From NCBI RefSeq assembly GCF_032854445.1, contig NC_088302.1, forward strand, positions 35,342,191-35,406,190: a stretch of DNA of 64,000 bases, in the 5' to 3' direction. Of the stretch, positions 11,501-61,800 are shown piece by piece. Source of the DNA: Liolophura sinensis. Lineage: Eukaryota; Mollusca; Polyplacophora; Chitonida; Chitonidae. The first letter of the stretch is position 1; each line of letters begins with the position of its first letter. The position numbers and the translations under genes were made by a program. Under the pieces are notes generated by a model. It saw only the letters and a program-made list of their open reading frames with translations. It had not been told where the DNA came from and made no database searches.

Positions 11501-14500
11501 TACTTTTAGAATTCCATATTTTTGCTAATGAGTAGAATTTAGTCTATGGTAAAAGAATGCTTGCCAACATTTGAGTTCATCCCATGTCACATGTATAGTG
11601 TTATTTAACCATATCATCTACACTTTTCATTTTCGCATGTGTTCTTTGATGCCTATCTGAGTGAGTTTTGGAGGTGTATTCATTGTTCATTGTTCAACTG
11701 TTTGTTTGTTTTTCTTTCTTTTTTTTTTTTTCCAAAAACCTGTCCAAATCTTCAACAGGAAGCCATTTGCGCAGATTTTTGTATGTGGAATCATAACTTG
11801 ACAAATGTATGTTACACGTACAGTTTGTGATACTACTAAATGTTTCAAATTATTCTGTTTTTATGTTTTGTTTTTATAAAGAACTTCGATGTAGACATAT
11901 GTATACATGTATAAATTGATGGAAAGATCATGTAGTATACCGTACTCGGAAACTGGAGTTACCCTCACCCTTCACCTGGTACTTGAACTAACTAATTTAC
12001 ATAACCTAATGCCATGTTTACTTTACTGAGTGAACATTGATTTATTTCTAATTATCAGTGTTGTGAAGGGACTGGTAGATACTGGTAGGTAGAAGTCCTG
12101 AAAGTTTCACTTCCGTATTCTTTCAGAAAATGTGTCAAGTCCTTCTGTCTGTGTGTGTCTGAACCTTATACCTGTACATCATACATGAGATTAACTCTTA
12201 TCTGCTTTACTCTGGCACTGGATAATGTCAAGCCACTTCACTACACAGGTGGTAACTAGTGGAGTACACCAGTGACCTGTCTAATGTAGGGTCTTCTGTC
12301 ACTGATGGGGCTGTTGTTCTTACCTTACAGCTCTATATAAAGCCAGCTAGGTTAGAGTCTCAGTCAAAATTACACATGTAGCTGTTGCATTAACTTTGTG
12401 AAATACATGGTTCTATTTTTCTAGTACAAACTGTAGTAAAAATCACTGCTAACATGTACATGTACTTCGAAATAAGAACTTTTTTTTAAGGCTATCAGTG
12501 AAAATTTTATAAGAAAAAATTCCCTGGGATGGCCAGTTTTTGGTTTTGGTGTAACGTTCAGGAATGTAAACTCCAATGATCTCCTGTTTTTCAAAAGCAT
12601 ATCTACAATTTGTATGTTTCATGATTATTATTCTTTTTAGAGAGTTAGTTTTGGGAAATTCCAGAAAGTGAACAAATTTGGAATATTGTCTTGAAGGAAA
12701 CAGTTGAAAACAGTTGTCAAATTCAGGATAGATTGCTGGAAAGTACTTTCCAGCCTGCATGGACCTTGCTGTTTTCCCCTCAGATATAAATACAAGTCAC
12801 AAATCCATTTCAGAACAAGAAAAATTGGCAGTTGTGTAGGATTTCGTCTCTTTTCCATTTGATATGTGAATGAACGATGTTTAAAAATTAAGCCCATGTA
12901 AAAAAAGAGGATGTCCAAAACTGTGGTAGACCATCAGACAGAAAGTACAAACCACTAAATAGAGATGCAGCAAAGCAGCTAGGCAACCAATTTATTTCTT
13001 TGATTGGTAACTAGCAATCAAAACTGCACATATGTACATGTCTGCCTGTCAAGTACATGTATGCTGAACATTCAGTTAACCTGTGCCATTCATGTTGGTA
13101 CATCTTAATAGGTGTGCACTTTATATTCTGTTCACTGTTCATCATGATTTGTGCGTTCATCTTGAGAAAGTCTAAATCACCTTACAGGAGAGGGTGATAA
13201 TGATGTATGTGATGTGAATACAATGATGATCATCATCATGATCATGATCTGTGCGTTCGTGTTCACAGGGTAGTCCATGAGAAAGTCTAAATCACCTTAC
13301 AGGAGAGGTGATAATGATGTATGTGATGTGAATATAATGATGGTGATCATCATCATGATCTGTGCGTTCGTGTTCACAGGTCAGCCTTGAGAAAGTCTGA
13401 ATCACCTTACAGGAGAGGTGATGATGATGTATGTGATATGAAGATAAATGATGATGATCATCATCATGATCTGTGCGTTCGTGTTCACAGGTCAGCCCTT
13501 GAGAAAGTCTAAATCACCTTACAGGAGAGGTGATGATGATGTATGTGATGTGAATACAATGATGATGATCATCATCATGTTCTGTGCGTTCGTGTTCACA
13601 GGTCAGCCCTTGAGAAAGTCTGAATCACCTTACAGGGAGAGGTGATGATGATGTATATGATGTGGAATACCAATGATCATGATCATCATCATGATCTGTG
13701 AGTTCAGTGTTCATAGGTCAGCCCTTGAGAAAGTCTAAATCAACTTACAGGAGAGGTGATGATGATGTATGTGATGTGAATACAATGATGATGATCATTA
13801 TCATGATCTGTGCGTTCGTGTTCACAGGGCAGCCCTTGAGAATGTCTAAATCACCTTACAGGAGAGGTTGATAATGATGTATGTGATGTGAATACAATGA
13901 TGATGATCATCATCATGATCTGTGCGTTCGTGTTCACAGGGCAGCCCTTGAGAAAGTCTAAATCACCTTACAGGAGAGGTGATGATGATGTATGTGATGT
14001 GAATACAATGATGATCATCATCATGATCCGTGCGTTCGTGTTCACAGGTCAGCCCTTGAGAAAGTCTAAATCACCTTACAGGAGAGGTGATAATGATGTA
14101 TGTGATGTGAATACAATGATAATGATCATGTTCTATTTGTTTGTGTTCACAGGGCAGCCCTTGAGGAAGTTAGAATCACATTACAGGAGCGATTGCACCG
14201 CTGGGGCTTCCTATAGAACACCTCTGTGGCTTCTCCATCGTAACAAACCCAGGGCTATCCGCTCTCTGTGGCCTGTTACAGAGAAGTGTCACCCCGTCAG
14301 GCACTGTAGCCTATGGTAAGGGCAAGGAGCTTTCACAGAGTTAACTCCCTGTATATTAGTGTGTACAGTATTTTGTGTTTTCATTGGAAACGATTTTCAT
14401 GTTTCTCTGTGTGTAGAAGTCATCATGTAAACTGCCCTCATGTGAAGTTATTGTTGCTTTATGTCGTAATTATCATCCACTCATCACCACAACGTGTGTG

Positions 14501-17500
14501 CCAGGGGCAAATGTCACACAGCAAGTTTTGATCTACGAAGTTGGCATTTGAAATTTAAATGCTGAATATTCTTAGACCATTGGAGTTGAAACTGAGAAAC
14601 ATGTTAATAACTAGTTTTGCTTTAGGACAAATATACAAGAAGTTTGTATCAGTGAGATGCTATGAACTGCAAATTAGTCTAAATTTGTTTTGTGGAATTT
14701 GTCCCAACTCATAAAATAGCTTGATTGTAAGCTTTAAAGAGGCTTTACCAGAGATTCTTTGCAAAAAATCAATCAGCGCAAATCCAGTGAAATTTTGGCT
14801 ATTATTTTAGAATACCCCAAATAATTACCTTTTGCCAACGTCAGCCTCGTCTGCGCATGTCTTATTATTCCAAAGTGCTTAAAATGTTCAGATTGGGTCA
14901 AATTGTAACTTTTTTCAAATTTAGAATCATTTTAACAGTATAAATAGTGCAGGGTACAAGTCTGACATTTACCGAAAGGCAATACTATGTGCTGATCTTG
15001 GTAAGTACAGAAAAATTATATACAGGCAATATTAATTTTTTGCCAAAAATCTCTGGTATACCCCTCTAAACCTTCCCTAGTCATATTGAGAAGAATAGGA
15101 TCATGTACATCATTCTAGTTGATTATTTCTCTGTTGTGTTGATTATAATTTTTGGCAACTTGTTGAAAAAAACATATCACGTTTGTTACGTATAAAAGAC
15201 CTTTTTAGTATGTTTTAGTCATTTTTAGTCATCAGATTAATGGGATGCAGAATGGACACTGATTGGCTGATAGTGGAGAGAGGGTTTCTGGAGTTAAATC
15301 TTGCAGCCTTGGTCATCCTTGAATAAATCTACCATACTAAAGAGTTCAGTTTAGGATAGGCGTAGCCTTGACTTGCCTATCTATCACATCAACCAATCAG
15401 AATCATGTATCGCTTTAAGAAATATGGTATACATTGTATATAGATGTGCATAATGTCCACAATTGAGCATGAGTCCCTGTCTGACATTTGCCACCAGTGA
15501 TAAGTGTAGTTTACATAGATTATCTGTTGTTCTGTACTTGTCTTATCAACAACTCAATCACACCTGACCATTCTCACCTCAGTGGGTAGGTGTGCTTCAG
15601 AACCATTTATGGAATATAATGTCTGTATCATTGTCATGTCATCTCAGTGTTGGCCTCATTTAATAACAAATATCACACATGCCCTGGTACTCCGAAGGGC
15701 ATGGTGGATAGGTGTCAATTTGCATTACCATATTTCACCTGAAGAGTGTATGTAAAAATCCACTTTCAGAAGCAGATAAGGGCCTTATTATTATACTTTT
15801 GATGCCAAACTGTAAGTTTTTATTGCTATGTGTAAGAAAATTAATTAGACTTTACAAGAAACTCTTAAGAAAGCAGAAATATAGCCCTAAACTTTAGGTG
15901 ATGTAAGGTAACTCAGAAACAGGGCAGAGATACTTAAGGTTCAAGTGGTCGGTTTTAGGGTCAGAATTATCAAATTTGGATGTTACACAATTCAAACCCC
16001 CTATGCTAGAGGTGACGTGATCTAGATTACTGTAAACAAGGAGTGGTTGTTTTTTTGTGGTTATATGCAGTATTCAGTGTTGAAATGCAAGTTTGTGCAG
16101 GAGTTAATAACATGTAAAGCATACATGTATACTGTTTTGTATTCTGACATGAGCATGCATCAAGAAACTGTTGGGTTTTACTTTATGTTTTAAAAGTAAC
16201 ATTAGCTTTGTGCTCACTGTATGAACAAATTTGTCAACATAAACACAGTTCTCCTGACTTGTTTATGCATTAGACTGGATTTGATTCTGATGGACAGTAA
16301 AAGTGATGCAATAATTGGTAAAATTTAGCATAACTCCAAATGTTTTTAAGCTATTTTCCGTCTGTGTGATGTTTAGATCACAGCCCTTTGTCTGTCAGTC
16401 TTGTGTACATGGAGGTCATGGACAAGAGCATTTCACATTTATGTATTTCTTGTATATAACAAAGAAGAGTCTTTGTTTTACTAAATGGCAACAACATGTA
16501 TGTTTGGTTTTACCTGTATTATAGCTGTATTTGTTAATAGATTGTGTTTGGATTCAAGGCGTGATGTTGTCTTGGTTCAAACAGTCTTTAATGCCTTTGA
16601 TTTCTGACTTATGTTACAAGACTGAGAGTATGAAAAAATCACTGACACTTTCACATGGATGTTATACCCGTGCAACTTCTGATTTTACAAAATTTGTGTT
16701 TAGCAGACAAGTTGTTATAAATCTTTCTGACACAGATTTTCTTACTCTCTTTCACTTGGTATGGTTCAGTTAATGTAATTCTTCAACCTTTTTGCATGTT
16801 TGCAAGCTGTTTAAGCATATCCTGAGGGCATTAGTCTGTGTAGACTGATAAAATTATACTTTTTGTGAAGCCCTGAAATTTGCCAATTCAACCAATATAG
16901 TTTTGTCTTCAAAATCAATGCAAAAGGTTAAATTATACTAAATTATACTGAAAGTTGCTCTTTTGTATGCGAAAAATGTTGAGGAATTAGGCAGATAAGT
17001 GCCAGTTTTGTTTGTTTTGCTACTGCACACTATATACCTGCTGATACCGGTACACTGCCAAAAGATGTGTCTGTCACTGGAAATCACTTATGTATGTTAA
17101 TCCTTTTGTGTAGGTTCATATACCATAATTAGGGTATCTGGGAGAGTACAAAAAAAAACAAAAAAACTTTTTGTTATTGAAGTTGGAACTCTTACTCTTA
17201 CTTTTGAAAGTGTTCACCATATATTGTACTTCAATGTACACAGTCTTGACTCAGTAAGTTTCATCAAAGCTCACTTCAGCACAACTTGTACACACTGGAC
17301 AGGACAGCTTTGACTCACTTGTCACATATTGGTATTCCTGTGCACAGTCTTGACTCAGTATGCACAGAAAGTGTGTTCCGTCAAAGCTTACTTCAGCACA
17401 ACTTGTACACAGTGGACAGGACAGCTTTGACTCACTTGTCAAACATTGGTATTCCCTGTGAACATCCTGGACTCAGTATGCCACAGAAGTGTGTTCCGTC

Positions 17501-20500
17501 AAAGCTCACTTCACCACAACTTGTACACACTGGACAGGACAGCTTTGACTCACTTGTCACACATTGGTAATTCCTGTGCACAGTCTTGACTCAGTATGCA
17601 CAGAAGTGTGTTCCGTCAAAGCTCACTTCACCACAACTTGCACACACTGGACAGGACAGGTTTGACTCACTTGTCACACATTGGTATTCCTGTGCACAGC
17701 CTGGGACTCAGTATGCACAGAAGTGTGTTCCGTCAAAGCTCACTTCAGCACAACTTGCACACACTGGACAGGACAGGTTTGACTCACTTGTCACACATTG
17801 GTATTCTTGTGCACAGTCTTGACTCAGTATGCACAGAAGTGTGTTCCGTCAAAGCTTACTTCAACACAACTTGTACACAATAGACAGGACAGCTTTGACT
17901 CACTTGTCACACATTGGAATTCCTGTACACAGCCTGGACTCAGTATGCACAGAAGTGTATTCCTTCGAAGCTTACTTCAACACACAACTTGTACACACTG
18001 GACAGGACAGCTTTGACTCACTTGTCACATATTGGTTTTCCTGTGCAAGTCTTGACTCAGTATGCACAGAAGTGTGTTCCGTCAAAGCTTACTTCAAACG
18101 CAACTTGTACACACTGGACAGGATAGCTTTGACTCACTTGTCACACATTGGTATTCCTGTGCACAGCCTGGACTCAGTATGCACAGAAGTGTGTTCCGTC
18201 AAAGCTCACTTCACCACAACTTGTACACACTGTACAGGACAGCTTTGACTCACTTGTCACACATTGTATTCCTGGACTCAGTATGCACAGAAGTGTGTTC
18301 CGTCAAAGCTTACTTTAACACAACTTGTACACACTGTACAGGACAGCTTTGATTCACTTGTCACACATTGGTATTCCTGCACTTAGTATGCACAGAAGTG
18401 TGTTCCGTCAAAGCTTACTCACCATAACTTATACACACTGGACAGGACAGCTTTGACTCACTTGTCACACATTGGAATTCCTGTACACAGCCTGGACTCA
18501 GTATGCACAGAAGTGTGCTCCACCATAAATCACTTCAACAAAAAATTAAAACATTGAACAGGACTGCTTTAGCTCACTTATCCAACCTTGGGACTTCGCT
18601 CCTGGTGCACAGAAGGGTGCACTAAAATGGCTCACTTCGGTAAAAATGCATAGATTATTGTGACCTGCAAATAATTCATTTCATGTTTGTTAAATGTTCA
18701 TTTCACTTTATCACACTCATGGTAGCACGCCTTATTTTATGTATAAGCTGTATACACATAAGTATTTGGTCATGATAATTATGATTAATAAATGATAATT
18801 AATGCAGATAGACTTTGCTACTTCTCCCCTCCCCTCACATCAAAGTCAGGTCAGCCAGCCTACTGTTGGTCAAACCTGTGTTAACTCTTCCGCCATGCCT
18901 GTGTTACCTTTAGGAGCTGCGCGGGTCGCTCTGCCTGTCCCCTTGCTGGGTCCAGTTAATCTAGATGATGCTGATGAGGATCTGCCCCCATCTTACACCA
19001 GCGCTACAGGTACATTGTCAAACTAGCCCTGGGGTGATGGTCACACAGATTCACTGTCAGAATCTCTGTGAATATGAATCTGATCAAACTCTGCTCATGG
19101 CCATTATTGTCAACAGTAATGTAGAGACTAACTGATGGAAAGGTCAGTCCGAGAAAAGAAATTTTGTTCATGTTCAAATACATGGGACCAGATGTCATTA
19201 AAAGTTCTTAACAGATTAAGGGCCACATTATTAAAAGGATGACACAGACTTGAAGACCTTTATGTTAAGGTTTTATATTGCTTTTTACATTCCTTTTATA
19301 CAGGAGATACTGAAATAAGCCAAGCAAATTTCATTTATCATCATAGAAAATCAGTTTTTAAACCTTATTTTCTGGATTTGAGGTTAGGGAAAATTCAATA
19401 GTTTATTTTGAGGACATTATGTCACTGTTGACCAAATGGCCTGTAGAGCAGTCTTTGGATTGTGTGTTTTCTGTGTAGCAGGCTTGGTTTGCTTTTGTCC
19501 AGTTTTGGAAATGGTATAGTCTCTTGGGTTCTTTTATATTTTGGCACTGGTGTTGTTTTTCCTACACTTGTTTTAGATGCACACATTCACACTGACACTT
19601 CTGTTTCTTGGGTGTTTTTCTGTTGAATGTTAATTAAGTCTTTAATATAAACTTTTAATAAAATTTTGACAAGACTCTTTTGATTTAAATTTCTTTTGAA
19701 AGATCTGGATATGAATTCACTCCATTACACTTTTTTTCTGAAAACGAAATCAGTGACGATAATAAAAAATGTTACAGGATATTCTGCGCGTATATATTTT
19801 TATTGGGTCAAAGTTTGAAATCAAGTAAATGAATACTTTTCTATTAAATCCATGTAACCGTTTTCTCTACTATTCTTGCTTTGATTAGAAATTCAGAGGT
19901 GACAAGTGGTCTCTGCTTGCAACTAAATATGTAAACATAACTGCATGAAAATAATTGGAGGAATTACCGTAGATAAAAGAGTAAGGAAACATTACACATG
20001 CTGCGAAAATTTTGACATTCCTGAGAAAACTGCACTCAGTAAAATGCTTTGGCAAATTGCATATTGTTAAGAAAATATGATTTAATATGGTAACTTGAGT
20101 AGAAGCTTGTTTTTTGTGTCTTTATTCACGTATCATGTTGGGCTGTGGCATAGATATGATGTAAACATTTTAAGAACCTTGAATTTTCTTTGTTTTCATT
20201 TTAATAAAGGGTATAAATTTGAAGGGGCAAATGAAAATTCAAGATTTAACTAACCATTCGAGAGACTGTTGAAAACTGTACCTTAATTTATACACTTCTG
20301 TACTTTTGCTTAATTTTTTTACCTTTTATGTTCTTAAATTGAATAGTCAAATATATTTACATTGGCATTTAAGAAGTCCAAGTCATTTCTCTTCCCCCAT
20401 TTGTATTTTGATTTAATGTTTAAATACTGTTTTTGAAGTTATGGCACTTTTCTTTTTTTATAATGCTTTGAGTTGAAAATCAAATAATGTTTTGTTGAGT

Positions 20501-23500
20501 GTTCGGTGTGAAGGTATTATTTTTTGCAGTTTCTTTAACATACTTTAGTTGTTTTGTGCGTGCAGTGTACCAGTTTTTCATTATTATTTGATATATGTTT
20601 TGTGCACCTTTTCCAACCTGGCCAATCAGGTTTTCACATTTCCTGTCGATAGAGTGAACTGTGAATTTTTTTCTGATATTTAGGTTATTAGTATGTTATT
20701 AGAACTGTATACACATATGTGTGCAAACTGTTTCACGTTGTCCATGTCACTTTAGGAGGTTCCGTAATAGTGTCCTCACATTTTTGTTTCAGCTACTTTG
20801 TACAACTCTGCTTATATTAATGGTTGTCTAAAATCATTTCACCCTTATTCAGGTATGGAGCATTTGAGTTGTTTTGATTTTGTAGGATGGAGCACCGTGT
20901 TGCATTTTGTACGATTGTGTTGATATATTATGGTTTTCTTGTAACTTCAGAAATGTAGAATGTTAAGGAAATCAAGCAGTATGAGTATGAGTACAGGCGT
21001 GTGCGTCTTGAGTAGATGAGTTATACACTCCTTGGTTGTTGTGAATGCAAGTATTGCTTGTTCTCTTTGATAATGCGCTTTATGCTGATTTGTTTTTAAC
21101 TCTACATGCACTTGCAACGCTTCCCTCCAAAAGGACACTTGTTACCTTGTGTTGATAGTGAAATATCTGTATCTACACAAGATCCCTTCGTGTACTCGGA
21201 AAATCAAATGGTAAAAAAAATTTCACCCTGTGGCATGAAATGAAATTGACATTCTCTTCAAGAACTCTTTCTGGCTAATTTGACATTTTACTATGAACTG
21301 TTTGTTTTCATAGTAATTTCTATTGCCCTAAAACCCTTTGATTATATTTTCTTCCAAAATATGAAAAATCTGGATATAACCTTGAGGATATAAGAACACT
21401 TCTTGACTGTCATTAAGACAGGTCATTAGGATGATAGCTGAGTATGTCAACCATATTAACTGTGATGCATAATGGGGGTACATTATACAGTACTGCTGAT
21501 TGAGGGCCTAGCTCACTTTACATAGACTGATAAAGCCCTGGTTTGCTGCAACTGTCAGGCCAATGAGGTTGCTTGTTTGAATCCAGTTGTCGCTGATCCG
21601 GATGCACTTTAAGTTAGGAGATTTGTCAAGAACTGGACGAAGAGTGAGGGTTTAATCCACATTCATCAGCACATATTCCTGACTGCCATCATGTACATGA
21701 AAAATTCTTGAGTGCCGCATTACAATAAAATAAACAGATGATACTGTCGGCACCAAAACTGCATTATGGTGACATTAGCAATACCTTAACAGCTTTCCAA
21801 TGGGGGAAGGGTGTGCAGTACCCAGCCAATAAGCCTGTGTTGTACGTTTTTTCAGTTTTCCCCCACACAGCATTTTGGTTTATTTGATTTGAAATGTAAC
21901 TTCAACTCCTTGTCCCTTGTTTGTCTGAATAATAAAAGTTCTTCTTTGCTTGTCTATCTCAGAAGTCTGCATTGCATACATGTTTGTGTTAGCTATAAGA
22001 TAATGTGTACATTCCTGACTGTTTGACAAGGTTGCTTTGTTGTCTTGTAATGGCTGCCATATCTACTTGGAGCTAAGAAGGAAGTTTCCTTGCATGTCAT
22101 ATCTGCAAAAGAAATGTTGTCGCTCTTAAAATTTGATTGAAATGCGTTGGAATACCGGAGATATTATTTTGGAAAATACTGTTGTACTTGTTATTTTCTT
22201 CAGCAATATTGTGCAAAGTAATGCTTACTATTGCAGCAAGCTCCATTAGCCCGATTCAATGACAATATATAGACATGATGCTTGTAAACATGTTCTGTCC
22301 CAAATGCATATCTTAAACTTGGTCCTGGCTTAAGGTGTGTTTGCTTCTGGACCTTTTTAAAGCTAAGGATCACTGAATAAAATCGTTTGTTGGTTGACTG
22401 GTACATTTCCTTTCATTGATGAATTTTAGTTTAAATGCTTTTTTCAGTGGAATGTATGTATTAAATACCAATACCATATGCAATTTTTATGGATTTGAAA
22501 TAAATGAAAGAGAAGACTCAATTTTATCATCGCATTAACAGTCCTTCAATTCTATAGTCACAAAGCATCAAAAGCTACTTAACGATAAAAAAAATCAGGC
22601 ATTGTTTAGTTATAAGAAGCTGTCAAAACTGGATGCCAGGATACAAGGAAACCGTTATTGTCTGTGTTTTTCCAGTTGTTAGTCCGTTGGAGACGTTGAA
22701 GAAAAAGTCCCCTTCATCAAACACATTATCCAAACGTACAACCATCAAAGATGTTCGAAGACATTCATTGGCCACCATAAGTGATTCTGAAACATCCAGA
22801 CCAGTAACTCTGTGACACCGGAGGGAAGAGTTACATTTGATCTCGGTGAAAAGTAAGTTCTTCATGTTGGTATCTGTTGTTGTTAAATGTGGAGAAAACA
22901 TAAAAATTAAAAGTTTAGTGAAAACTTAGCTGTAAAAGTTGTCTTCAATATTTTTGTTGATTTCCCATTAAAGAAGAAAAGACTTTCGAAAATAATTTTT
23001 GTATTGTGGGTTTTTTGGACCACTTCTTGATGATGTTATAAATGAGGATATAACACATGTTTAATAAATAAAACTGTACTATAATTCAGTCTTTTCAGCC
23101 AACAAATGTGTTCAGACTGAATTTTTATCATATTTATTTTTTGAAAATATCCATTATTACTATCGTAATGCAGATTAAATACATGTGTTTGGGATGCTAG
23201 CAGCAAATTTACATTCGAATGAATTTATTCGACATGCATCACATACTTATTTAGACAGTTATTATCCAAAGATGATACATACCGACAAGAGGTCCCAAAT
23301 ACCCAGCTTACAAAAATATTTTCCAAGAACATATTTGCAAAGAAGTTTTCCCACTCTTTCATCTGATTTTTGCATCATGTTTTTTTTTTCTCCTTAAAAC
23401 TTATTAACTGCATGTAATATCTAAAACTATTTGGAATCTGTAGAGATTTACTATTTTATGTTTATGTGGAAGTTTAATGGCTGACACATCAGTAACATCT

Positions 23501-44300: not shown

Positions 44301-46525
44301 CCGCGTATCAGTAGTTATAGGATGAATTCTTCTCACAAAAACGGCCCTTAAACTGTTTCAGATCCAAAGAAAGAGTACATACGATGACTACAACATCAGT
44401 CCTAACCTTGATGTAAGACTGCATGATGGTTGTTGGGTAAAAAAGGAACGAAGGTCAGCAAACGGTGTGTATTGAATGTCGTTTGATGCTTGTCGAAAAT
44501 AGGTATTAATTAAATCGTGATTATTTTTTTGGGAAATACGTAACATCATCCAGTTTATCCACGGACTGTTTATCAGACGGCAGCCATTTCTTGTCGACGC
44601 GGAAGTCAGTATAGATAACGTTTGAATAGATATTCGTTTCAGATTACACACATTCTTCCTTTTTTATGAACAAAAAATGTATTTAAAAAAACATCACTTT
44701 CTTATATTTTAAATTACGGTGTGGTAATTTTGAAGTTTGGTCTAAAAATACAGTCTCTAAAGTATTTATATTTATCAAAAGTAAAATATATAACGATTTC
44801 CTTTGTGTCACAGAGACATCAGATGATAGTGGATGCTCGTCCCCTAAACACAACAGACGGAAGTCAAATTGCAAACCAAAAGATGAACATGTCTCTGACA
44901 ATATAAGCGAAGTGATGCAAGGCAGTGAAACACTAGAGCAGACACGGAACACCAATGGAGGGAATAAATCACCCAGGGTTAGGAAACGAAAGGACAAAAG
45001 AACGCCTAGACTTTCCAGGCGGAATGGCGAAGACAACTCTGGTTTTGAGTTGTCCGAAAGTAGCAATACTTCCGGTAACACGCCCTCTCCTCTTTACGCC
45101 GATAATATCCGCCAGGTGGAGTCACCTGGACTGGGTTCCGGAAAGCCGAAGAACGAGCGTTCAGGACTGACCAATCGTGTTGTCACAAGTGAAATGCTTC
45201 TGACGGCTGACCCAGTAGAGTTGACAAGATTTAGTAAGATTTATGAGCGGGGCCAAGACGAAGGTCACATCCAACGCAAAGGTCACGCATACAAGGGGGG
45301 CGATGTGATATCCTTGGGGGAAGACTCATCTTCATCCTCTGGGACGACAGGCACGGACAGTCCCGCAAGTAGGTCCCCGCAGAAGACAGTAAAAGGTAAA
45401 GAAAATGGATTGAATACTCACGTGCAAAGGTTTAAAAATAAACAATTTAAGGAGCAAAGACGCTTTACCCGAAGCGAATCCGGAAGCGATTTGTCTTGTG
45501 ATACTTTGGACTCCGACTCTTCCGGTCTGACGTCGACGTCCCCGTGTGACTCTGTCGTGTCTGACGGGCAGGTTGCGTATTTTAACAAAGTTAAAAAGGA
45601 TAAACATGGAAAATTTTTAAGTAAACCGAAGAGCATTTTGAAGGAAATTCGACGGACCACGGACGGCGCGTTGAGCAGAATTATGGGGAATGGCATGGAT
45701 GAGTACGCCCGGTCGGAGGCCGCGCCACAGAGGCCCGTCACAGCCATACCCAGTCATAGACGATCAGTTCACTTTGGCGATGAAGCTCAAACCACGGGAC
45801 CGTCTAGAGCCAATAAGTCTTGGGTGGCCGAAGATGTGAAACCCAAAACTGAGCAGACAAGAAAAGCGAAACCTGACACCGTAGTGACACAGCAACCATT
45901 GGGTAGACCATTACCAAACAAATCAAACTTAGAGGACGGCAATAGTAAGAAGGCGCAGAAAAATAATGGGTCAAGTGAAAAACAAGATTCGCAGCCAACA
46001 CCCGAAAATCCTCCGGTGGCTGATGGCATGTTGACAAATGCTTGGTCGTTTGGCACTAAACTGAATCGCAAATCAAATGTGGATGTAGCAGCCACTCCAA
46101 AGTCGCCGAGCACCCCGAAAAGCTTCCTGCGCCCCAAAGCAAAAGTTGTCTTTTCAACCGACGAAGAGGATAGTGACGTGGACTGGCGGTCCAGCACCTC
46201 GCGTCTCATCGTCGTCAATGGACCGGGAAAGAGCGGGATTTTTGATTCCACGACTGAATTAGAGAAGGACACAGAAACTGACACAGAGATATCTCACTTC
46301 AGACTAGAAGACGTCGATGACCAGGAAGTGAATTATTTATCAGACAGTCATATATCAGTTCCCGCCACGCGCCGAGTTAACATATCCTCCAACAACAAAA
46401 CTAAGGGGAAAAGAAATTTAGGAAACTTTAAGAAACTGCAAGGTACGAGTCTACCCAGAAAGCGGCTGTACAACCCTAAGAAGCAGTCCCTCAGCATGTT
46501 GAGTCTGAATGTGCTGGATTTGTAG
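38332..46525 (+). CDS. Unrecognised 863-residue protein with protein phosphatase 1 docking motifs
   Basis: Six exons join in phase: 38332-38744, 40314-40435, 41722-41834, 42698-42880, 44362-44412, 44816-46525. The acceptor at 44816 is used because it alone keeps the frame. Residues 1-277 look folded (LPWEMFLRDPDKL, VNALFRATFMDNPAF, LIVTSGEPYQPVLSRDRVLC) but match no family I can name. From about 295 the chain is polar, Ser/Asp/Lys-rich and probably disordered. It contains SILK at 567-570, RSVHF at 610-614 and KVVF at 737-740 followed by STDEEDSD. SILK, [GS]IL[KR], upstream of RVxF is the known docking pair of several PP1 regulators, so a PP1-regulatory role is inferred. TPKSPSTPK (721-729) suggests proline-directed phosphorylation and VRKRKDKR a nuclear signal. 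The last 30 residues are basic then hydrophobic (SLSMLSLNVLDL). Exon structure is well supported; function is inference. Confidence 0.85.
40551..40790 (+). repeat. tRNA-derived SINE
   Basis: Head GGTCCCGATAGCACAGTTGG with TAGAGC forms an A box and TCAATCCTGGATCGAGTC a degenerate B box. The body ends with CATATGACTAAAAAATTGCT and ACGATGTAAAACCCCAAGC, the same tail as the SINE ending at 59250. It lies in the intron after exon 2 of the unrecognised gene. The CTTCGGGAG anticodon-loop region resembles tRNA-Pro, but no intact tRNA is present. Confidence 0.8.
41573..41620 (+). repeat. Upstream partial copy of exon 3 of the unrecognised gene
   Basis: An exact match of 26 bases (41595-41620 with 41751-41776, starting GACGACTCAGTCAGGGAAAC) and a similar CTGCTGACGATG stretch before it repeat the start of exon 3 about 157 bases upstream of the real one. 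It is a tandem duplication of exon edge into the preceding intron. Confidence 0.85.
41869..42005 (-). repeat. (AAAT)-tailed SINE, diverged and truncated
   Basis: An ATTTATT-rich tail leads into TTTATTACGCCACAGTCAAG, AATTTTTCAGGCC and GAACCGGGCAGATCCCG, matching the order of the commonest SINE. It lies 35 bases after exon 3 of the unrecognised gene. Confidence 0.6.
42941..43298 (-). repeat. tRNA-derived SINE, near full length
   Basis: Reverse complement of the element at 58219-58518, sharing the GAGTGAGTGAGTGCTTGGGA tail, GACGCCTTACCGAAGGCAAG body and CGTTGCACTATCCCCTT segment. The head lies at the right end (CCGAAGCGGGCAAC). It sits in the intron between exons 4 and 5 of the unrecognised gene. 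Confidence 0.85.
43855..44097 (+). repeat. (AAAT)-tailed tRNA-SINE, plus member of an inverted pair
   Basis: Head GTCTCGGCCTAATCGTTAGA and GAGTTCAAGTCC (B box), body GACCTGCGGATGGTCGTG, and end GAACGGCGTAAAATATCAAT plus CAAATAAAT. It meets the oppositely oriented copy at 44098 tail to tail. Confidence 0.85.
44098..44236 (-). repeat. (AAAT)-tailed SINE, minus member of an inverted pair, truncated
   Basis: Starts with TTTATTTATTTATTTGATTG, then CATACTCAAGAATATTTCAC and GGCGGCCAGCATTATGGTGG, and breaks off at CCCACGTACGGCCG. It is followed at once by another AAATAAATC tail remnant (44236-44260), so at least three insertions or rearrangements lie together. Confidence 0.85.
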
Positions 46526-50720: not shown

Positions 50721-50988
50721 TTTATTTGTTTATTTATTGGATTGGTGTTTTACGCCATACTCAAGAATATTTCACTTGTACGACGGCGGCCAGCATTATG
50801 GTGGGAGAAAACTGGACAGAGCCCGGCGGAAACCCACGACCATCCGCAGGTTGCTGTCAGACCTTCCCACGTACGGCCGGAGAGGAAGCCAGCATGAGCT
50901 GGGCTTCAACTCACAGCGACCGCATTGATGAGAGGCTTCTGGGTCGTTACGCTGCGCTAGCGCGCTGACCAACTGAGCCACTGAGGCC
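50721..50988 (-). repeat. Full-length (AAAT)-tailed tRNA-SINE (reference copy)
   Basis: The most complete copy in the window. On the minus strand it starts GGCCTCAGTGGCTCAGTTGG (A box), has GTGAGTTGAAGCCC (B box) 70-80 bases in, continues through CCTGCGGATGGTCGTGGG and CACCATAATGCTGGCCGCCG, and ends TTGAGTATGGCGTAAAACAC with a (AAAT/AAAC)n tail. Length about 268 bases. A pol III-transcribed, LINE-mobilised element is the standard interpretation. Confidence 0.9.
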
Positions 50989-51407
50989 ACTACTGTGAAC
51001 AAAAGTATAGGTAAATGTTAACATTTTTGAGTATACATACATATAACTGTAAGTTAAATCTAGCCGTCAGGCAATTCAAACATTTCTCTGATCATATGTT
51101 GCATTAGACCTTACCAATGCTGGACTACTGTCAATATCAAGGTATCCCGCATTTTGCTATAGTATATTCCAGAAATCGCATAACCTTATACATATTTTTC
51201 CCGTAAAAAAAGTAAATATTCCATGGAGTCCCATGCACGCCCATAATTTATAATTTCCCCACCCTATGTTATGCGAGATGAAAATTTTAATTGAATACAA
51301 TTCATTTGATTGAATGACTGATTGCTGCTCAACGCAATGCTTTCTTACGTAATTCTCTCTTACTACACGATCCCTTCAAATTAAGAAAACATGTCCTTCT
51401 GTTTATT

Positions 51408-51870
51408 ATTGTTCCCTTGTGTCAGTGCATATGCGGTGATATTGTCCCCTTGTGTCAGTGCATATGCGGTGTTATTGTTCCCTTGTGTCAGTGCCTACAG
51501 GGTGATATTGTCCCCCTTGTGTCTGCATATGCGGTGATATTGTTTCCTTGTGTCAGTGCATATGCGGTGATATTGTCCCCTTGTGTCAGTGCATATGCGG
51601 TGTTATTGTTCCCTTGTGTCAGTGCCTACAGGGTGATATTGTCCCCTTGTGTCAGTGCATATGCGGTGATACTGTTTCCTTGTGTCAGTGCATATGCGGT
51701 GATATTGTTCCCTCGTGTCAGTGCATATGTGGTGATATTGTTTCCTTGTGTCAGTGCATATGTGGTGATATTGTTCCCTTGTGTCAGTGCATATGTGGTG
51801 ATATTGTTTCCTTGTGTCAGTGCATATGCGGTGATTTTGTTCCTTTTGTGTCAGTGCATATGCGGTTGTA
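51408..51870. repeat. Minisatellite, 33 bp unit, about 14 copies
   Basis: Unit CCTTGTGTCAGTGCATATGC followed by GGTGATATTGTTC; two copies carry CCTACAGGG instead of ATATGCGG. Since 33 is a multiple of three, long open frames appear on both strands (CVSAYAVILFP-like). No start context, splice sites or non-repeat coding sequence support a real protein. Confidence 0.95.
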
Positions 51871-52460
51871 TATAATGCCAACATATTAATAGTGGATACT
51901 ACCTCAGTGGAACACCGCACACGGTCACAATATTCACACAGTGCATGCACTGGGCATTGCTTACATGTGCGGAATATCAGGCGCACAAATACTGTGACTG
52001 ACTATATAAGCCTTCGGGTTGACACGACTCGACATAAACCCGGCATCTGGCTTACCAGATGTAGACTTTTTATCCCTTGGTCGCAGGTTGAGACCCAACG
52101 AATTAGAGCTGGGATTCAAGGTTAAGGGTTTAGCCTTCTTCAAGGGAATGACAGCTGAAATAATTCACACCTAGAATTCGCACATTTTGATATGGAGTTA
52201 TCAAGGATTGACGTTGACAGACGAATACACACACGTAATGTGCGTAGAGAAATGGTGGAAAGATATCAAACCTCACGATTATATATTAGCTTGCATTATG
52301 ACCGTAGCACATTTTGATGCATATAAATTCTACTTAAGTCATCTGCCCAGGGCAGCTATGGTGTATACGAGAAGGATAACTTAGACTCGACTTTTCACAG
52401 TAGAACGCATGCAACCTTGATTGAACACGATAGGCAATGAATTTGATTTTAATTTTGATT

Positions 52461-52602
52461 TTAATTGTTGTTTAACGCCATATTCAAGAATTGTTCACTT
52501 ATAAAAACGGGAGAATCTACAAATTCTCTGCTTAGGGCCGGATTTGAACCCGCACCTAGTGTGTCCCAGCGATTGTAAGATGACCACCAACCACGGCCTA
52601 AC
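52461..52602 (-). repeat. tRNA-SINE of a second subfamily
   Basis: On the minus strand GGCCGTGGTTGGTGGTCAT forms a tRNA-like head and GTGCGGGTTCAAATCCGGCC a good B box. The other end, TTTAACGCCATATTCAAGAA, is the tail shared with the common SINE. Confidence 0.75.
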
Positions 52603-52764
52603 CATTCCTGCAAGAAGGCAAAAGTGCACACCGATAATGATGACTATGTGTTTTATGTAACATATGTGGCAGTAAAATATGGCGAGTTTTGTTCAGCTGC
52701 TTCTCTTTACCTTTACTGTACCAATATTGACAACTTTATCAGCTGTGAACTGCTGATCATCTTC

Positions 52765-52812
52765 ATGACATTTATTTATTTATTTATTTATTTATTTTTT
52801 TATTTATTTATT
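52765..52812. repeat. (ATTT)n microsatellite before exchanger exon 1
   Basis: About eleven ATTT units, interrupted once by a run of T, ending some 30 bases before the exon acceptor at 52844. It may supply pyrimidines for splicing or be a SINE-tail remnant. Confidence 0.8.
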
Positions 52813-52845
52813 TTACTAATAAACAGCCTATTTTCATCCTTCAGA

Positions 52846-55800
52846 ATGGCTGACTCTGAGAAGAAGCAATCTACTTCTGCCGGGACATCAGCTCTGCCTA
52901 GTTACTGGTCGACGTCACAAGAGGAAGTCCAGTCAGATCCCTTCTCTTCTTCGTGTTCGGATATTACACCGAGACGGAGGCCAACCGAAAATGGCATAAC
53001 GAAACCCATGTCAAAGTCCGCTGGAAACCTGGAAATATACAACTCAATCGATGAAGCCGAAAACTCCATTGAGGCCCAGAAAGCAATAAACAATTATCTG
53101 GTAAGTTGGACACGTACATGCAAATAAAAGCATTCCTAAAATATTCAAAATCATAACTTTTCAGCATTTCTAGTATGTTTAAATACTTACAGACGGGTGA
53201 ATATTTCACAAAAACAGATTTTACTCAAGACATCAGTTTCATTTTTTTCCCCTGAATTTCGTTATTATTTTGGAAATATGTCATAGAAATGTTGATTTAG
53301 GTTCGCACTTTTTTCTTCGTGAACTGATGCACAGATTTCTTCTGAATCTCGAACCCAAAGTTCAGAGATGGAGAAATATAATCTATGATTGATTAATTTG
53401 AAGCGTTAAAGTTGTTTTAACACTGTTGTAATTTTTTTTAAGTTCGGCTTTAAGAAATGGAAGACTCGTTTGACACTGGATGACCAACCAGACGCCATCC
53501 AGGAACTGTACGATGACGACAGCAAGATAAAGCCTGTCACAGGTAAATGAACAAAAACGAACTGGGAATTTGAAATTATCTAGTACAGTTCTCGATTTCA
53601 AAACGCTGAGTATCATCACAGATTTATATGTTGAAATGTGATTTTATATTATAGACTTAAAAATACGCACTTGAGCTCACGACGTACCCGGTAACGCTAT
53701 GACAGATATAATCTTTAACTTCAGCGTGAGGATTTATTTATTTTGTTCTTGTTGAAAACCATGGTTGTGATTTTTTACTTATACTATTGCTGTAAGTGTT
53801 ATGTGTGGGGGAACCTGAATGTCCCCAAGGGCTCACGGACATTGACAGCCGGGGAATTCACAAATCCTCTACTCATAGCCTTGAACCCTCTCCCTCTCCG
53901 AGTGTTCTGCCAACTGAAACACTGAAAGTGTCCAATCGATTTCCACCCCGCCTCACCCAGAGTGAAGATTTTAGTTTATAAAGTACAGTCGTTCCAGAGA
54001 TGAGATTCAGTTCGTATCAACTCCGAAGTTTTGTCTTCATTCTTCAGTGTAACTATTTCACAATTGATTAATATCAATGTTTAAGCCTTCAGAATGTCTT
54101 TATTTCAGTGTCCACGATACGGCTGAGTAACCTGCTGTATGTCTTAGTGTTTGGCTGGTGGATATCTCTCGTCTATCTGATTGTCGGGGTCTTGTTGATG
54201 ATCACCATTGTGGGGAGATCTTACCGTAAGTTAACACTGGGTGATGACCACCATAATAGCAAATCTTACCCTATGTTTACACAGCCTAATGATCCATTTT
54301 TGACTGATTGATTGGTGTTCACTCAAGAATGTCCTCATGATCTACATTGTGGGGAAAGCTTACTGTGTTACCACAGGATAATGATCTACATTGTGGGGAA
54401 AGCTTTCTGTAACTTACCACATTGTGGTGAAAAGCTTTCTGTAACTTGGGAAAAGCTTAATGTCACCTAATACATTGTTGGAAAAGCTTACTGTAACTTA
54501 CCACATTGTGGTGAAAAGCTTACTGTCACTTACCACATTGTAGAAAAAGCTTACTATAACTTACTACATTGTGGGGAAAAGCTAACTGTAACTTATCACA
54601 TTGTCGAAAAAACTGTAACTTACCACATTGTGGGAGAAAGCTAACTGTAACTTATCACATTGTGGGAAAAGCTTACTGTAACTTATCACATTGTGGGAAA
54701 AGCTATATGTAATTTACCACATTGTGGGGAAAAGTTTACTGTAACTTACCACATTGTGGGGAAAAGCTTACTATCACTTACCACATTGTAGGAAAAGCTT
54801 ACTGTAACTTACCACATTATGGGGAAAAGCTTACTGTCACTTACCACGTTGTGGGAAAACCTTACTGTCACTTACCACATTGTAGGAAAAGCTTACTGTA
54901 ACTTACCACATTATGGGGAAAAGCTTACTATCACTTACCACATTGTAGGAAAAGCTTACTGTAACTTACCACATTATGGGGAAAAGCTTACTATCACTTA
55001 CCACGTTGTGGGAAAACCTTACTGTCACTTACCACATTGTAGGAAAAGCTTACTGTAACTTACCACATTATGGGGAAAAGCTTACTGTGACTTATCACAT
55101 TGTTAGAAAAGCTTACTGTAACTTACCACATTGTGGGAAAAAGCTTACTGTAACTGACCACATTGTGAGAAAAGCTTACTGTAAGTTACCACAGGATAAT
55201 GATCTACATTGTCAGAAAAAGCTTGCTGTAAATTACCACAAGACAACGATCTAGATTGTAGAGGAAGACAACAGTAATGTTACCAAAGGATAATGATCTA
55301 CACTGTGAGAAAAGCTTACTGTAAGTTACCACAGGATAATGATCTACATTGTCAGAAAAAGCTTATTGTAAATTAACACAAGACAATGATCTTCATTGTG
55401 GAGGAAGATAACAGTAATGTTACCACAGGATAATGATCTAGTTATCCCAGAATGATGGTCTACTCTGTGGGAAAAGTTTACAATAAGTTGCCGTAGATTA
55501 ACGGTCTTCGTCGGTGGTAAAGCGTACTATAAGTTGCCACAGCCTAATGATCTACATTGTGGGGAAAGCTTCCGATAACTGACCTCTGGATTATGATGTA
55601 CTGTAGAGCGTACTGTAAATTACCACAGATTAACTTAATGTATCACGGTTAAAAGCTTGACGTGACTTAAAGCTTGGTGAAGCACATTCCTTAACTGATA
55701 CAACATGTCGCTCAAATTGTACCAATACTGTTGACAGGTCCCTTCTGTTGGAAGTTGGCCAAATACTTCCTATGGCCTTTTGGGAAGTTTGTCCACCAAA

Positions 55801-58800
55801 TACATGTAAGTATGAATAATGGTAACCTTCACAGTGAACTATCTACACTCCTGTAATCATAACGAGGCCAACTGTATGCGTACTTCCACATCATATTTCG
55901 GCCAAGCTCTTGCTTGTGGACAATCACTGGATTGCATGCTTTGTCTTGGAAAAGGAATTTTCCCACCCTTATTACTCTGAGGGTCAGGGCAGGAGTAAGT
56001 TCAAGTTCAGGAATAAGACCAGAAATTAAGGTTGAGTTTGTGCAAGGCTTAAGACAACTCGGTGTAATCACGGTGTTTTGCGCATGCTTTGTCCTCAGAT
56101 CAACAACTCTCCGTCGATGTATTTGGCAGTAGTTAAGTCTCACCTGAACGGAGCGATCCCGTCAGAGGGCGCCACTCCAGCCGCCAAGGAGACGACGGCT
56201 CTGTTGACGGGCACGTGGTCTGGTTCTGAGCATGCCGCACTCAAAGATGTCACGGTTGACAAGGACTATTGGGTAAGTGACCCGTTGCATATATAATCAG
56301 GGAATACCTTTTCCTGTACAATGTGGCGACTAGGGCCCAAGCGCAATTGGTCCTTGTTCTCATGAGTCATACGTTAAACCAGCTTGCGAAAAAACAATAT
56401 TGCAAACATCGAAATTAATGAACAATTTTCTTTACACAGGTCCGAACTATTTTAGGCAAGAAAGGTTCTTCACTGACGTCCCATGTTCATTTTACGTTTT
56501 GTGCATAAAACTGTTAGCCGTCATGTAGATAAATAATTAATGAGTGCCACGTTAGACACCAATGAGATAAATATTAAATAACGAAGCAAACTTGAAACGT
56601 TTTGTAAAACTTTGCAAACATTTTCTCGTAACTTTCTTCGTTGATATCGTTTTCAGAGTTACACAGAAAACTGAATAAAAACTGAATTACAATGGTTTGT
56701 GAAAGAAGGCCGAGAAATGTGGTATGCAGGTTGTAAAATTTTAAAAAGAATTGGAAAAGTCGTGTCTGCGACAAAGATTTGAAGGCTTCACCGGGCGTTG
56801 TGAAGAAAGTTGGTGTGAGAAAGGCAGACTGTTTCAGTTCACTGCTCTCTTAGAATAAGTACATTACGATCCTAAAATTGAAATTATCATTGGTGGAATA
56901 TTAACTGAACTAAGATAATATTTTTTGCTGTTCTCAGACGAACCCCAGAACCATAGTGTGGCTGATCTTGGGTTGTCCACTGTTACTGCTGGTTCACGGG
57001 ATAACCATTTTCATAAGCTGGATACTGGTGGTCACGATACCTATTGCTAAGGTATGTTCCTGAGAAATTTATAAAAATTGGTGCAGTACCAGTAAAATAT
57101 ATGTCAGAAACCGTGTAACTGTCATTCAGCCGTATTCGAGATCCAAGGAACCTAGTTTTTTGTGTTAGACATCGTTTTACAGTCGCTTTAGACCGTTTTG
57201 TAGATCGGGAGACGTAAGTTTTGTGTACAAACCCAGCATGTCATATGCAGTGTTCATTGAAAATATTTGTGACTAAATTATTGATCTAACTTTATTGCAA
57301 AAGGTTTTTTTATGAATGTTACCATACTTTTTTGACATTTTTCCTATTCAACAATATTATCATTCACACTTATTTCACTCTCTTTCAGGTGAATGTTAAA
57401 ACTATCCAGAAGATCTTATTCCTGCCTCCAGAGGCGGTTCAAATAGAAGACACTGGAACCATACACCTGGTAATCTTAAGTTTATTTCACATGTCGGTCG
57501 TCCTCATATATTCCTGGAAAAGAGTGATAATTATTTCAATTCGTATACGTTCTTTGGAAACAGTGATACTGATTTACATGTTGATCTTTATTATATATTG
57601 CTTGGAAGAGTGATAGTTATTTCAACTATACAGATAGAAATACGGATATAGTTATTTCAACTATACAGATAGAAATACAGATTACCATGTTTCACATGGT
57701 AATCGTTCCTATATATTCATTTGATACGGTGATAATTATTTCATATTTCATGGTAGACCTCGCCCATATATATTCCTTGAGCAAGTGGTATTTATTACAT
57801 ATGGTCATCACATGTGTTATATATTATGTGCAAAGAGTAATAATAATTTCACATGCTATTCGTTCTTACACTTTCTTTGCCAAGATTATTATCCGTTAAT
57901 GCAGCGTGCGCAAAATCTGTTTCAAATTTACCCGTATGTTTCAATTGTATTCTTGATTAAGTCCCGTCAAGACAAAATAACCCTCACTCTCCTCGGACAT
58001 TGCACTTTGTAACATGCTCCTGGTACAAATACGCCCATGAATTCAGTCCCTTTGCTGCTTGCAACCATGCGTGCAAGGGACTCAGTTTCTCCGAGTGACA
58101 TTTGTTTTCCGGTCTTGTGTAAACCAAGCATCGGGCGTAACAGTTGTTCGAAAATGAAAGATCGCATATTATCTTTGACAATTATCTTAAGACCCACCTG
58201 TCATAAAAGTTCTTCAATCGGTCCCGCTAGCACAGTTGGTAGAGCGCCCGCTTGGGGAGCGGCAGATCCAGGGGCAGCTTCCTCGCCTGGCTTTCAGCAT
58301 TAAAGGGATAGTGGAACGACTGGTTGGCCCGTATCAGTATAATGGCTTGGGCGGGGCAGCTTACTTGCCTTCGGTAAGGCGTCTCAGTGAAGCAGCACGA
58401 GGAAAAAGAACGGTGGAAATTCGTCCTGCAACAAGGAGGCACATTACATACATTCTAAGGATTCCTTCGCCGACATATGACGTTGAGTACGACGTTAAAG
58501 CCCAAGCACTCACTCATTAAATGTTGTCCCAAAGCAAAGGGCTAATTTATTATCATCTTAACAATTCCCTTATATCGCATAGAGCCAACTTGATTAATTT
58601 GAAGTCATATCCAAAGAAGATTAATGCCAAAATTTCTAAAGCATTTGTTGTTAATTCTCACAACAAAACCCATCACTTCGGTAAAACTGCACGATAGATC
58701 AAGAATAAATTAGACTTGTCTCATAAAACCGATTTCAGATCTTAAATTTGTATTTACTACCACACTGTCATCAGTACTCTGGTTTTACTCTCAATGCTGT

Positions 58801-61800
58801 AGCCTTTTATATTACATGTAAATGAATTTTGTGAGAAACCCAACCCAAAGTAGATTCGAGCTGCTTCGGTTCACGGTGACATGCCCTAAGGCTAAGGTTA
58901 ACACTGAACATACTAGTACATACCCCAAATAATCACAGACAGGGTTGCGACCGCCTCGAACTCGGGACACATGGGATCAAACCCGGGTCGGGTCATACCA
59001 AAGACTTTTAAAATGGTTCTTGTTGCTGCACGGTTTGACTCTCAAGATTGACAGGTTAGAACAAAGAAACTTCTTGTCCTGGTGTCGGTACAGTGTGACT
59101 TGGTGGGGTGTCATGTTTTCGATATGATACTTCAGTGATGGCAGCACTTTGGCGGCATGGACTCGCCTTGCCACAAAATGACACAGCACTGACTCCTCGT
59201 CATCATATGACTGAAAAATTGTTTAGTACGACGTAAAACACCAAGCATATCATACAAACATACACAAGTAAGATTAATTTGTTTTATTTCAGTTTGTTTT
59301 ATTATATGCTCCTTTTATGGTTTATTTATAGCATATTGCGTGTTTTTGTAGTATTCAAGAATTGAACACAGCGAGATCATCATGTACACCCAACAGTCTG
59401 TCAATTTCTACTACTACAAGTACACAATTGATGGGATGAACATCGTCCTCGTCAGTATCCTTTGATAGCATGTCAAGATAGCATGTCAAGGCATGACGTT
59501 CCAGAGATGCGTATGCTGATGATATGACCCGGCTACACGTGACTGCTTCTGCAGGCTCTAGTACATCAAAACCCGAAATGTACCATTTCTATGCCAACTG
59601 TCGTCTTCTGAAGGTTAGACAGATAGGTCAGAAACTGCAAAAAGTATCAAATATTCTAATCTCTTAAAGCCTGTTGGACAAAATGTTGTTAAAACTAGCT
59701 TTCCGTGTTGAAAAGAAGAAAAAAAACCCCTGGTGAAACAGTTATAACAAAATAATGTTGCAATCTCTAAACATCTACCCCTGACACTCCGGTTTCTATT
59801 CTAAACTAGAAATGTACCTACTGCTTCCGTTGAGACTACTCACGATGAGTCTCGGCACTTTGGGGTCACGTAGAAAGGTGCGTGATATCTAATATCCGGT
59901 TTCCTCCACCAATAAAACTGATCACGTCATGTGAGGCATGATAAACTCTTTATCATGTTTGTGAACAACGATCAACCGATCAGTCAATGAATCAATCATC
60001 CAATCCAAATATCATTTTCCTTAGCGCGTTCAGACCTGCTTCTGTTTGTGGTGATAACCCTGGTCCTTGGTTATTCAGACAAAGAACACGAATACACGAG
60101 TGGGTTTGTCGTAAGTACACAAAAATCAATGACGTGAACACTGTGACGTCACGCTTACCACAACATTGTATTGGCGATTCATGATGGTCCAAATGTTCGT
60201 GTCAAGATAAAATTGTGGAAACGTGTAAGGCAGTGTAGAGCAATATTGACCTGTGTTTCGTTTGGTGTATATGTTAATGATTTATTTAGTTTTCGGAAGG
60301 AGATATCAAAGGTAATCAAAAATGATCTCACTAATCAGAAAAATAATAATCCCAACAATGTATTTATTACTAGTGTTAATAAAGTAAGAGCCTATTAGTA
60401 AACGGAAATATAAGTTTTAAAAAAATAGAATTTTTTGTTGCATATTTTATAATTGTTAGCCTGCAATTTATGTTATCAGAAATGCATCTTATCTCTACTG
60501 GCTATCGTTCCCCTAACCTACTACATTGGAATGGGAATAGCATGGTAAGTTAAGAGAGAAAAAATCTTCCAAGTGTAATACAAATTGACGTCATTATGCT
60601 GTTATCAGTAAGCTTGATTGCCGTGTTAAGAGGACTGCTGTTTCTAATTTGTAAAGTTAAAATGATGTTATATTGATCAGCAAAATAATATACCGTTCAC
60701 AGGATACATTAAAAATCTTCCAGATCACATAGCACTTGCGCTATAAACTGTTTCTCTATTTACTATGTCAGTTCAGAGTATACTGGCTGTAGGAGATGTC
60801 CTAGGTGCTACATTGACCACACTGTTAAACTCTTTGTTGCTTCTGTTCGAGCATTGTAGCTCAGAGTATGCTGGCTGTAGGAGCTATCCTCAATGCAACA
60901 TTTGGCCCTGCTGTTAAACTCTTTACTGCTTTTGTTCCAGCATTGCAGCTCAGAGTATACTGGCTGTAGGAGCTATCCTCAATGCAACATTTGGTTCACT
61001 TGTTGAGATCATCCTGTACGTGCTATTTCTGGCTAACGGTCTGGAAAATGCCAGTAACTGCTTCGTAGAGCTGGTGAAGTCGGCTATGGCAGGTACATCT
61101 TTGGCACCTGACAACAACAATAAAACTAACATCAGAAATACCACATTACATCAATTCCTTTGGGCACACGAGGAGCATCATTTTACATGGATCATATTTT
61201 ATGAAAGATAATGCCAGGATACCGCCCGGAGTTTGGTTACAACTTTTAGTCCGTGGCTATACCCTGCGGAGCTGTAACTTGTCTAAACCTAGTTTTTTTC
61301 ATCTAAGGCCTTGTTTTATATTCTTGATGGGCCCTTAATCCAAAGGACGCAAATTTCATCACCCAAGATCCTGATCGCCGTGGTATAAGTGAAATAGTGT
61401 AGAGTTCTGCCTTAAAATTTAATCAAATCACCGATCTAGCAAGTACTAAGTAATCACCTTTCACAATGAGTATAGTTTTCTGCTAAATAAATAAGTACAA
61501 AAAGCCCAGAATCTCTTGCGCTCTGTTCATAATTGTGTCCAGTTCCGATTATCCCGGCCTAGGGGCTATATAATCATCGTGATGAATTAGATCGCCACGT
61601 TGGATATTTGAACAGCTGCAGTCAAAGTTCAATCGAGATACATATTTCGATCGTCGATAGCTTATATACTTGCAAGGTACACGATTGGAGTACAGATTTC
61701 ATTCATTCGCCTAGAACATTCCTTACGTCTTTCCAGCTTTAAATGAAAACTGTCAACTGCTTTTCTTTGCATGATTCCGTCCTAATTTCGTACTTCACAT

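Follow-up and report, generated by a model that had tools for sequence, protein, structure and literature searches.

Minisatellite-like tandem duplications of exon/intron boundaries, termed 'mirages', have been described in amphioxus, in the genes for Adh3, the globins BflGb6 and BflGb9, troponin C and PGBD5 (PMC3087553, PMC3902484), and have been suggested to be general in cephalochordates (PMC3087553). In the portions of these papers available to us, mRNA splicing is reported to be unaffected (PMC3087553, PMC3902484). A related model, set out after Rogers in the available text of PMC3087553, derives intron gain from the tandem duplication of segments carrying AG/GT, and in Cryptococcus the creation of introns by repeat expansion has been described (PMC2395259). 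Here we analyse tandem arrays at splice borders in 64,000 nucleotides of the chiton Liolophura sinensis (GCF_032854445.1, contig NC_088302.1, positions 35,342,191 to 35,406,190, forward strand; hereafter the window), and in 29 further genes of the same genome. These border minisatellites are the mirages of amphioxus, now in a mollusc. The original prediction, made from the letters of the window, knew of no such genome-wide habit, and thereby overlooked the amphioxus mirages. For molluscs, no title on border arrays was among those listed in our literature search, which covered open-access papers only, and the Conus paper among them concerns, in its available part, microsatellites in introns (PMC3862624). 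The assembly (609.5 Mb in 632 scaffolds; PMC11068029) was published as that of L. japonica, and a correction renames the species Liolophura sinensis (PMC12441733). Eight matches to a haemocyanin domain within 12 kb are in keeping with a mollusc.

Border-spanning arrays in the window and in sampled genes

A 50-base probe across each of 71 borders of the window (one of them a STIM donor misplaced by one base, leaving 70 after a GT check) was aligned to the 1.5 kb on either side, with shuffled sequence as the null. Five of the 71 borders scored 35-74, and the highest of 426 shuffled trials reached 22. The feature that marks a mirage, a tandem unit that spans the border, is thus present at 5/71 borders in the window, and at 15/344 borders in the sampled genes. 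The arrays and copies considered, with periods and copy numbers from Tandem Repeats Finder (TRF), are the following.

13161-14189, + strand: STIM minisatellite, 111 bp x 9.3 (TRF), intron 9163-14152
17264-18521, + strand: STIM intronic minisatellite, 117 bp x 11 (TRF), touching no border, given for contrast
32329-32547, + strand: minisatellite of amylase exon 3 (32186-32343), 31 bp x 7 (TRF), border probe score 53
35759-35845, + strand: amylase, degenerate copies preceding acceptor 35892, probe score 35 (99% quantile of shuffled trials 20.75)
41574-41620, + strand: gene 3, one copy of exon bases 41730-41776, score 64 (400 shuffled trials reach at most 23)
54388-55193, + strand: minisatellite of exchanger exon 3 (54109-54225), 31 bp x 26 (TRF)
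60769-60994, + strand: minisatellite of exchanger exon 11 (60949-61092), 89 bp x 2.6 (TRF), probe score 74

Of six cases named in the original prediction, four are true border arrays. The STIM unit contains acceptor 14153 together with the initial ~37 bp of the exon that follows it, and that of exchanger exon 11 contains acceptor 60949 and the first ~46 bp of the exon. On the donor side, the amylase exon 3 array contains the exon end and donor 32343/32344, and the array of exchanger exon 3 matches the exon end and donor 54225/54226, continuing in higher-order copies of 47/93/140 bp at 55160-55440, so that the repeat region as a whole occupies 54388-55440. The predicted retention of exon bases in the repeat unit is therefore borne out. 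The fifth border, amylase acceptor 35892, is a degenerate case that had been overlooked; its best copy lies at 35759-35788 and a second at ~35825, and AG is lost in both. The two remaining candidates were rejected as border copies. Upstream of gene 3 exon 3 there is a real copy, but it begins 8 bp inside the exon and holds exon bases alone, without the acceptor or the border. At exchanger exon 7 the best score, 20, lies inside the shuffled null (95% quantile 22), and the match does not cross the border. The STIM array of 117 bp sits 329 bp from the next exon start, 18850.

In order to see beyond one window, 29 loci (270 kb) were sampled from Pfam hit coordinates, namely nine myosin heads (123.5 kb) and 20 kinesin motors (146.5 kb). 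They were chosen, before any repeat was seen, from ~20 myosin-head and ~38 kinesin loci as grouped by us; preference was given to loci where several exon hits lay within reach, and those with very long open frames were left out. Exons were placed by a purpose-written spliced protein-to-DNA alignment, with squid myosin as the myosin query and, for kinesins, the better-scoring of a C. elegans kinesin and a kinesin predicted from this genome. Exon score cut-offs of 28 (looser) and 45 (better-supported) were applied and exons below them dropped; low-complexity probes were scored as unduplicated, and TRF rows with a period <10 or a score <60 were discarded. The gene models are imperfect: stops occur in 4/20 kinesin models, two of which are also frameshifted, and frameshifts were needed in 2/9 myosin models.

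In these genes, which were not selected for repeats, 15/344 borders (4.4%) are duplicated nearby at an exon score of at least 45, and 19/384 at the looser cut-off. As in mirages, both border types are affected (6/171 acceptors and 9/173 donors, score at least 45), and at least one duplicated border is found in 12/140 introns and 11/29 genes. The widespread occurrence that had been predicted is thus confirmed: within the sample, splice-border duplication is real and common to many genes. The copies lie in the same intron for 13 of the 15 duplicated borders, and are absent from it for 4 of the 19 at the looser cut-off; none of these 19 has copies inside annotated exons. The claim that arrays lie on the intron side holds to this extent, but no special mechanism is required for it.

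Some predicted myosin exons may show duplication of another kind. Exon 5 of the m1 model could stem from exon duplication and not from a minisatellite, since nearby matches exist for the interiors of exons 4 and 5 too. In the myosin gene at L003/L004 (C1:26636001-26651000), two hits lying side by side cover one and the same stretch of the myosin model (118-152 and 121-152), and exon interiors have matches nearby, a pattern that would be expected for alternative exons of muscle myosin. At L008 (m3 exon 12), each of four adjacent probes finds an identical or nearly identical match in the vicinity (scores 80-100 of 100), which may reflect recent duplication of the exon.

Minisatellites are plentiful in the sampled loci. 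TRF arrays with a period of at least 10 cover 19.6% of the sampled 270 kb (L003-L038) and 8.1% of the window, with a median of 6% and a range of 0-61% per sampled locus. The 89 arrays of the sampled loci have a median period of 34 bp and a median copy number of 9; 53 of them lie in annotated introns, 43 away from a border. In the repeat table published with the assembly, 0.08% is assigned to 'Other (simple repeat, microsatellite, RNA)' and 14.04% is unclassified (PMC11068029), and the minisatellites may sit among these unclassified repeats. In another chiton, Acanthochiton rubrolineatus, TRF repeats are reported to cover 9.21% of the genome (PMC11545220).

Origin of the border arrays

Our results are probably best explained by ordinary intronic minisatellites, seeded at random on segments that straddle an exon edge and tolerated on the intron side. 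Slippage at replication or unequal exchange would start repeats anywhere. A duplicated unit made of an exon end and an intron start would be nearly neutral, since the spliceosome would pair sites across the exon and take whichever acceptor or donor lies closest to the exon's other end, and decoys carrying a few tens of exon bases would be skipped. Later expansion would act mostly on the decoys, which can drift from the real copy. Once a duplication straddles a border, the role of exon end is left to a single copy, the one adjoining the exon body; decoys are thus intronic by definition, and extra copies on the intron side would be the sole arrangement that keeps the protein unchanged.

The choice of comparator is critical here. 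Raw repeat coverage of introns (12.5% of positions in the window, 27% in the sample) was tried and rejected, given that it counts every copy of an array as a separate origin. Instead, intron positions were weighted by 1/copies, and in a permutation each array was reduced to a single unit whose position was drawn at random within the intron that holds it. Of the 5,998 probed intron positions, 27% lie in local repeats, and the weighting reduces this to 4.2-4.4%. The border rate of 4.4% against a weighted intron rate of 4.2% gives a ratio of 1.04 (gene bootstrap 0.59-1.58); for myosins the figures are 9/146 borders (6.2%) against 4.6%, and for kinesins 6/198 (3.0%) against 4.1%. Since exon interiors are duplicated less (13/843 probes), borders behave like intron. 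In the within-intron permutation, 8 border-spanning arrays were found against 5.78 expected (P 0.20) when two doubtful exons, L019 exon 1 and L020 exon 1, each wholly covered by an array, were excluded. With score-45 exons the count was 7 against 5.17 (P 0.24), and for kinesins alone 3 against 3.05.

The main competitor, and a doubtful one, holds that minisatellites are preferentially born at or near borders, through slippage at the polypyrimidine tract, R-loops or repair-linked duplication. A process of this type had been put forward in the original prediction, together with a genome-wide comparison by which it could fail. In our 270-kb version of that comparison, the ratio of 1.04 at 15/344 borders and the non-significant within-intron excess of spanning arrays give no clear support to a process aimed at the border, although other counts lean towards it. 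These counts weigh against random seeding, and we set them out together. Keeping the two doubtful exons, the within-intron permutation gives 10 spanning arrays against 6.13 (P 0.07). Arrays that span a border or lie <=100 bp from one number 32 against 23.8 expected with all exons (P 0.003), 29 against 22.6 with the doubtful exons excluded (P 0.024) and 26 against 20.1 with the better-supported exons (P 0.02). A count that assumes uniform density gives 10 spanning arrays against 4.1 (P 0.01), or 7 against 3.25 with better-supported exons (P 0.05), and is given less weight because it ignores the higher number of arrays per kb in short introns. With distance from the nearest exon, weighted intron duplication climbs from just 2.5% at 60-120 bp (2.5-3.0% over 60-200 bp) to 8.3% at more than 1 kb, so the border rate of 4.4% is ~1.5-1.7x that of intron 60-200 bp away; the profile has a bias of its own, since an array that grows moves its copies outwards from the border. 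The window alone has 3 spanning arrays against 0.87 in the within-intron permutation (P 0.024) and against 0.47 at uniform density (P 0.012), an excess biased by selection, as the window was picked on account of the pattern noticed there. Finally, which of the sites are used is itself a prediction from sequence.

Array density helps to weigh these counts. Spanning arrays occur at 0.73-0.86 per kb, and arrays starting 25-100 bp into the intron at 0.71-0.87 per kb; starts within 25 bp are rarer (0.12-0.29), and those beyond 100 bp reach 0.22-0.25. Because the density at the border is about that at 25-100 bp, the border itself is not clearly favoured. Taken together, the data give some support to a mild lean towards exon neighbourhoods, roughly 1.3-fold.

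Decoy splice sites and remaining alternatives

The arrays do generate decoy splice sites in bulk, as had been predicted. Decoys were scored with weight matrices built from 164 donors and 165 acceptors at unduplicated borders, for 21 duplicated borders (5 in the window and 16 in the sample; L019 exon 1, L020 exon 1 and m4 exon 13 were left out). The core dinucleotide, AG or GT, is kept in 134/179 decoys, that is, in many copies and not in all. A decoy is at least as strong as the real site at 11 of the 21 borders, and the real site outscores the median decoy at 14. In the STIM array AG is kept in 8/8 decoy acceptors, which score 6.0-11.5 against 13.7 for the real acceptor; decoys of this array lie at 13269-14048. 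Amylase decoys lie at 32406 and 32437, and of two decoy donors scored at amylase exon 3, one is equal to the real donor and one stronger; at exchanger exon 3, GT is kept in 14 of 15 decoys, none of which scores as high as the real donor.

The copies of the STIM array also carry a trace of its history. Seven of the eight decoys have AGAAAGTCT where the real exon start has AGGAAGTTA, and because of this shared difference the array appears to have grown from a diverged decoy, and not via repeated copying of the border.

It has to be asked whether the arrays are kept because the decoys act, in regulated alternative splicing, in delaying splicing or as a reservoir of alternative exon ends. The retained dinucleotides and the strength of the best decoys would fit such a role, but young copies retain signals simply through youth, and the reading frame argues the other way. 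Extensions were tested for 117 intron-side decoys with an intact core, at 18 borders that include 2/5 of those in the window. A stop occurs in 108/117 (in frame in 8/8 of the STIM extensions), the length is divisible by three in 36/117, and 0/117 are both in frame and open. In none of the tested cases would use of a decoy, by its predicted translation, leave the frame both intact and free of stops. The period is a multiple of three in just 2/11 border arrays (exchanger exon 3 counted as 31 bp), or in 4/14 if the doubtful L019, L020 and m4 exon 5 are kept. We therefore regard functional decoys as very improbable. The frame breakage shows the cost of using a decoy and not selection, because intronic sequence would be expected to break the frame anyway.

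The host genes of the window are listed here with the evidence for each.

to 24018, + strand: STIM, SOAR domain and PDB 3teq alignment
29153-36135, + strand: alpha-amylase, PDB chains, from residue 93 on
38332-46525, + strand: gene 3, reading frames and GT/AG
from 52845, + strand: exchanger-like gene, YccF and a sub-threshold Na_Ca_ex match

STIM is confirmed by SOAR (PF16533, 109 bits) and by the PDB 3teq alignment, which crosses the junction at 14153; the other exon ends of the window were set from open frames and GT/AG. For the amylase, a PDB match (E 4.9e-107) accompanies a PF00128 score of just 20.1 bits, under its cut-off of 22. The exchanger identity is weak, with PF01699 (Na_Ca_ex) at 22.7 bits, under the cut-off of 24.9, plus YccF, and a 324-aa piece of gene 3 searched against Pfam gave no match. 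The predicted STIM exons 14153-14315 and 22676-22852 start open in one frame and end in another, for which an assembly error, a wrong exon model or a real defect may each be responsible. The amylase frame is open across the joined exons to the final stop, except for a TAG at 32270-32272 in exon 3, which may reflect a defective gene copy or a wrong base call.

False tandem copies introduced by assembly are barely credible as the source of the arrays: coverage is 14x HiFi only (PMC11068029), the STIM frame breaks and the amylase stop suggest some base-level problems, and one amphioxus mirage was reported as misassembled in the draft genome (PMC3087553), but the border arrays, at 0.2-2.0 kb, are shorter than the mean read of 8.3 kb given in the assembly paper (PMC11068029), their copies differ mutually (TRF matches of 74-91% in the four main arrays, and differences among the STIM units too), and the PGBD5 repeats of amphioxus are described as backed by resequencing (PMC3902484).

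Two further features of the window were noted. Similar stretches at ~40553-40780 and 58217-58520 start with tRNA-like sequence and were read by eye as copies of a short interspersed element (SINE); an ARAGORN tRNA scan found no tRNA gene, these stretches included. An array of 33 bp x 14 at 51407-51866 is open across 127-185 codons in three frames, probably a chance product of a unit divisible by three.

Chiton border arrays and known systems

With random seeding of ordinary minisatellites as the preferred reading, a rate of ~4% of mollusc borders, near that of random minisatellites, suggests that a special mechanism may be unneeded, and any genome rich enough in minisatellites should have border-spanning ones. 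The choice of splice sites could also be studied in the chiton as it occurs in nature, given its series of decoys that match the real site in strength. A bolder proposition can be put forward only tentatively: that chitons carry thousands of near-identical splice-site strings (the genome-wide number being extrapolated from ~4% of sampled borders), that exon definition on its own suffices to reject strong decoys at a distance of a few tens of bases, and that births lean mildly, ~1.3 to 1.6-fold, to exon edges. If births do lean in this way, splice-proximal DNA would be a hotspot that steadily supplies new intron sequence in two phyla far apart.

The chiton arrays resemble ordinary intronic minisatellites and variable number tandem repeats in unit size and copy number, and differ in that the unit happens to include an exon edge. 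With the systems of intron gain, as far as the available text of the papers describes them, they share tandem copies of splice-containing DNA; unlike those, they merely lengthen existing introns, with no new intron or exon shown. A STIM query against the assembly, which is a single haploid one, matched its own array only. The closest likeness is to the mirages of amphioxus, which in the available descriptions are likewise tandem units of ~10-160 bp across a border, affect donors or acceptors in several genes and retain AG/GT in many of their copies. The chiton case is distinguished by its mollusc host and by having been counted, in 29 genes, at ~4% of borders with no clear border preference, a quantitative null that is new relative to the available text of the two amphioxus papers (PMC3087553, PMC3902484).

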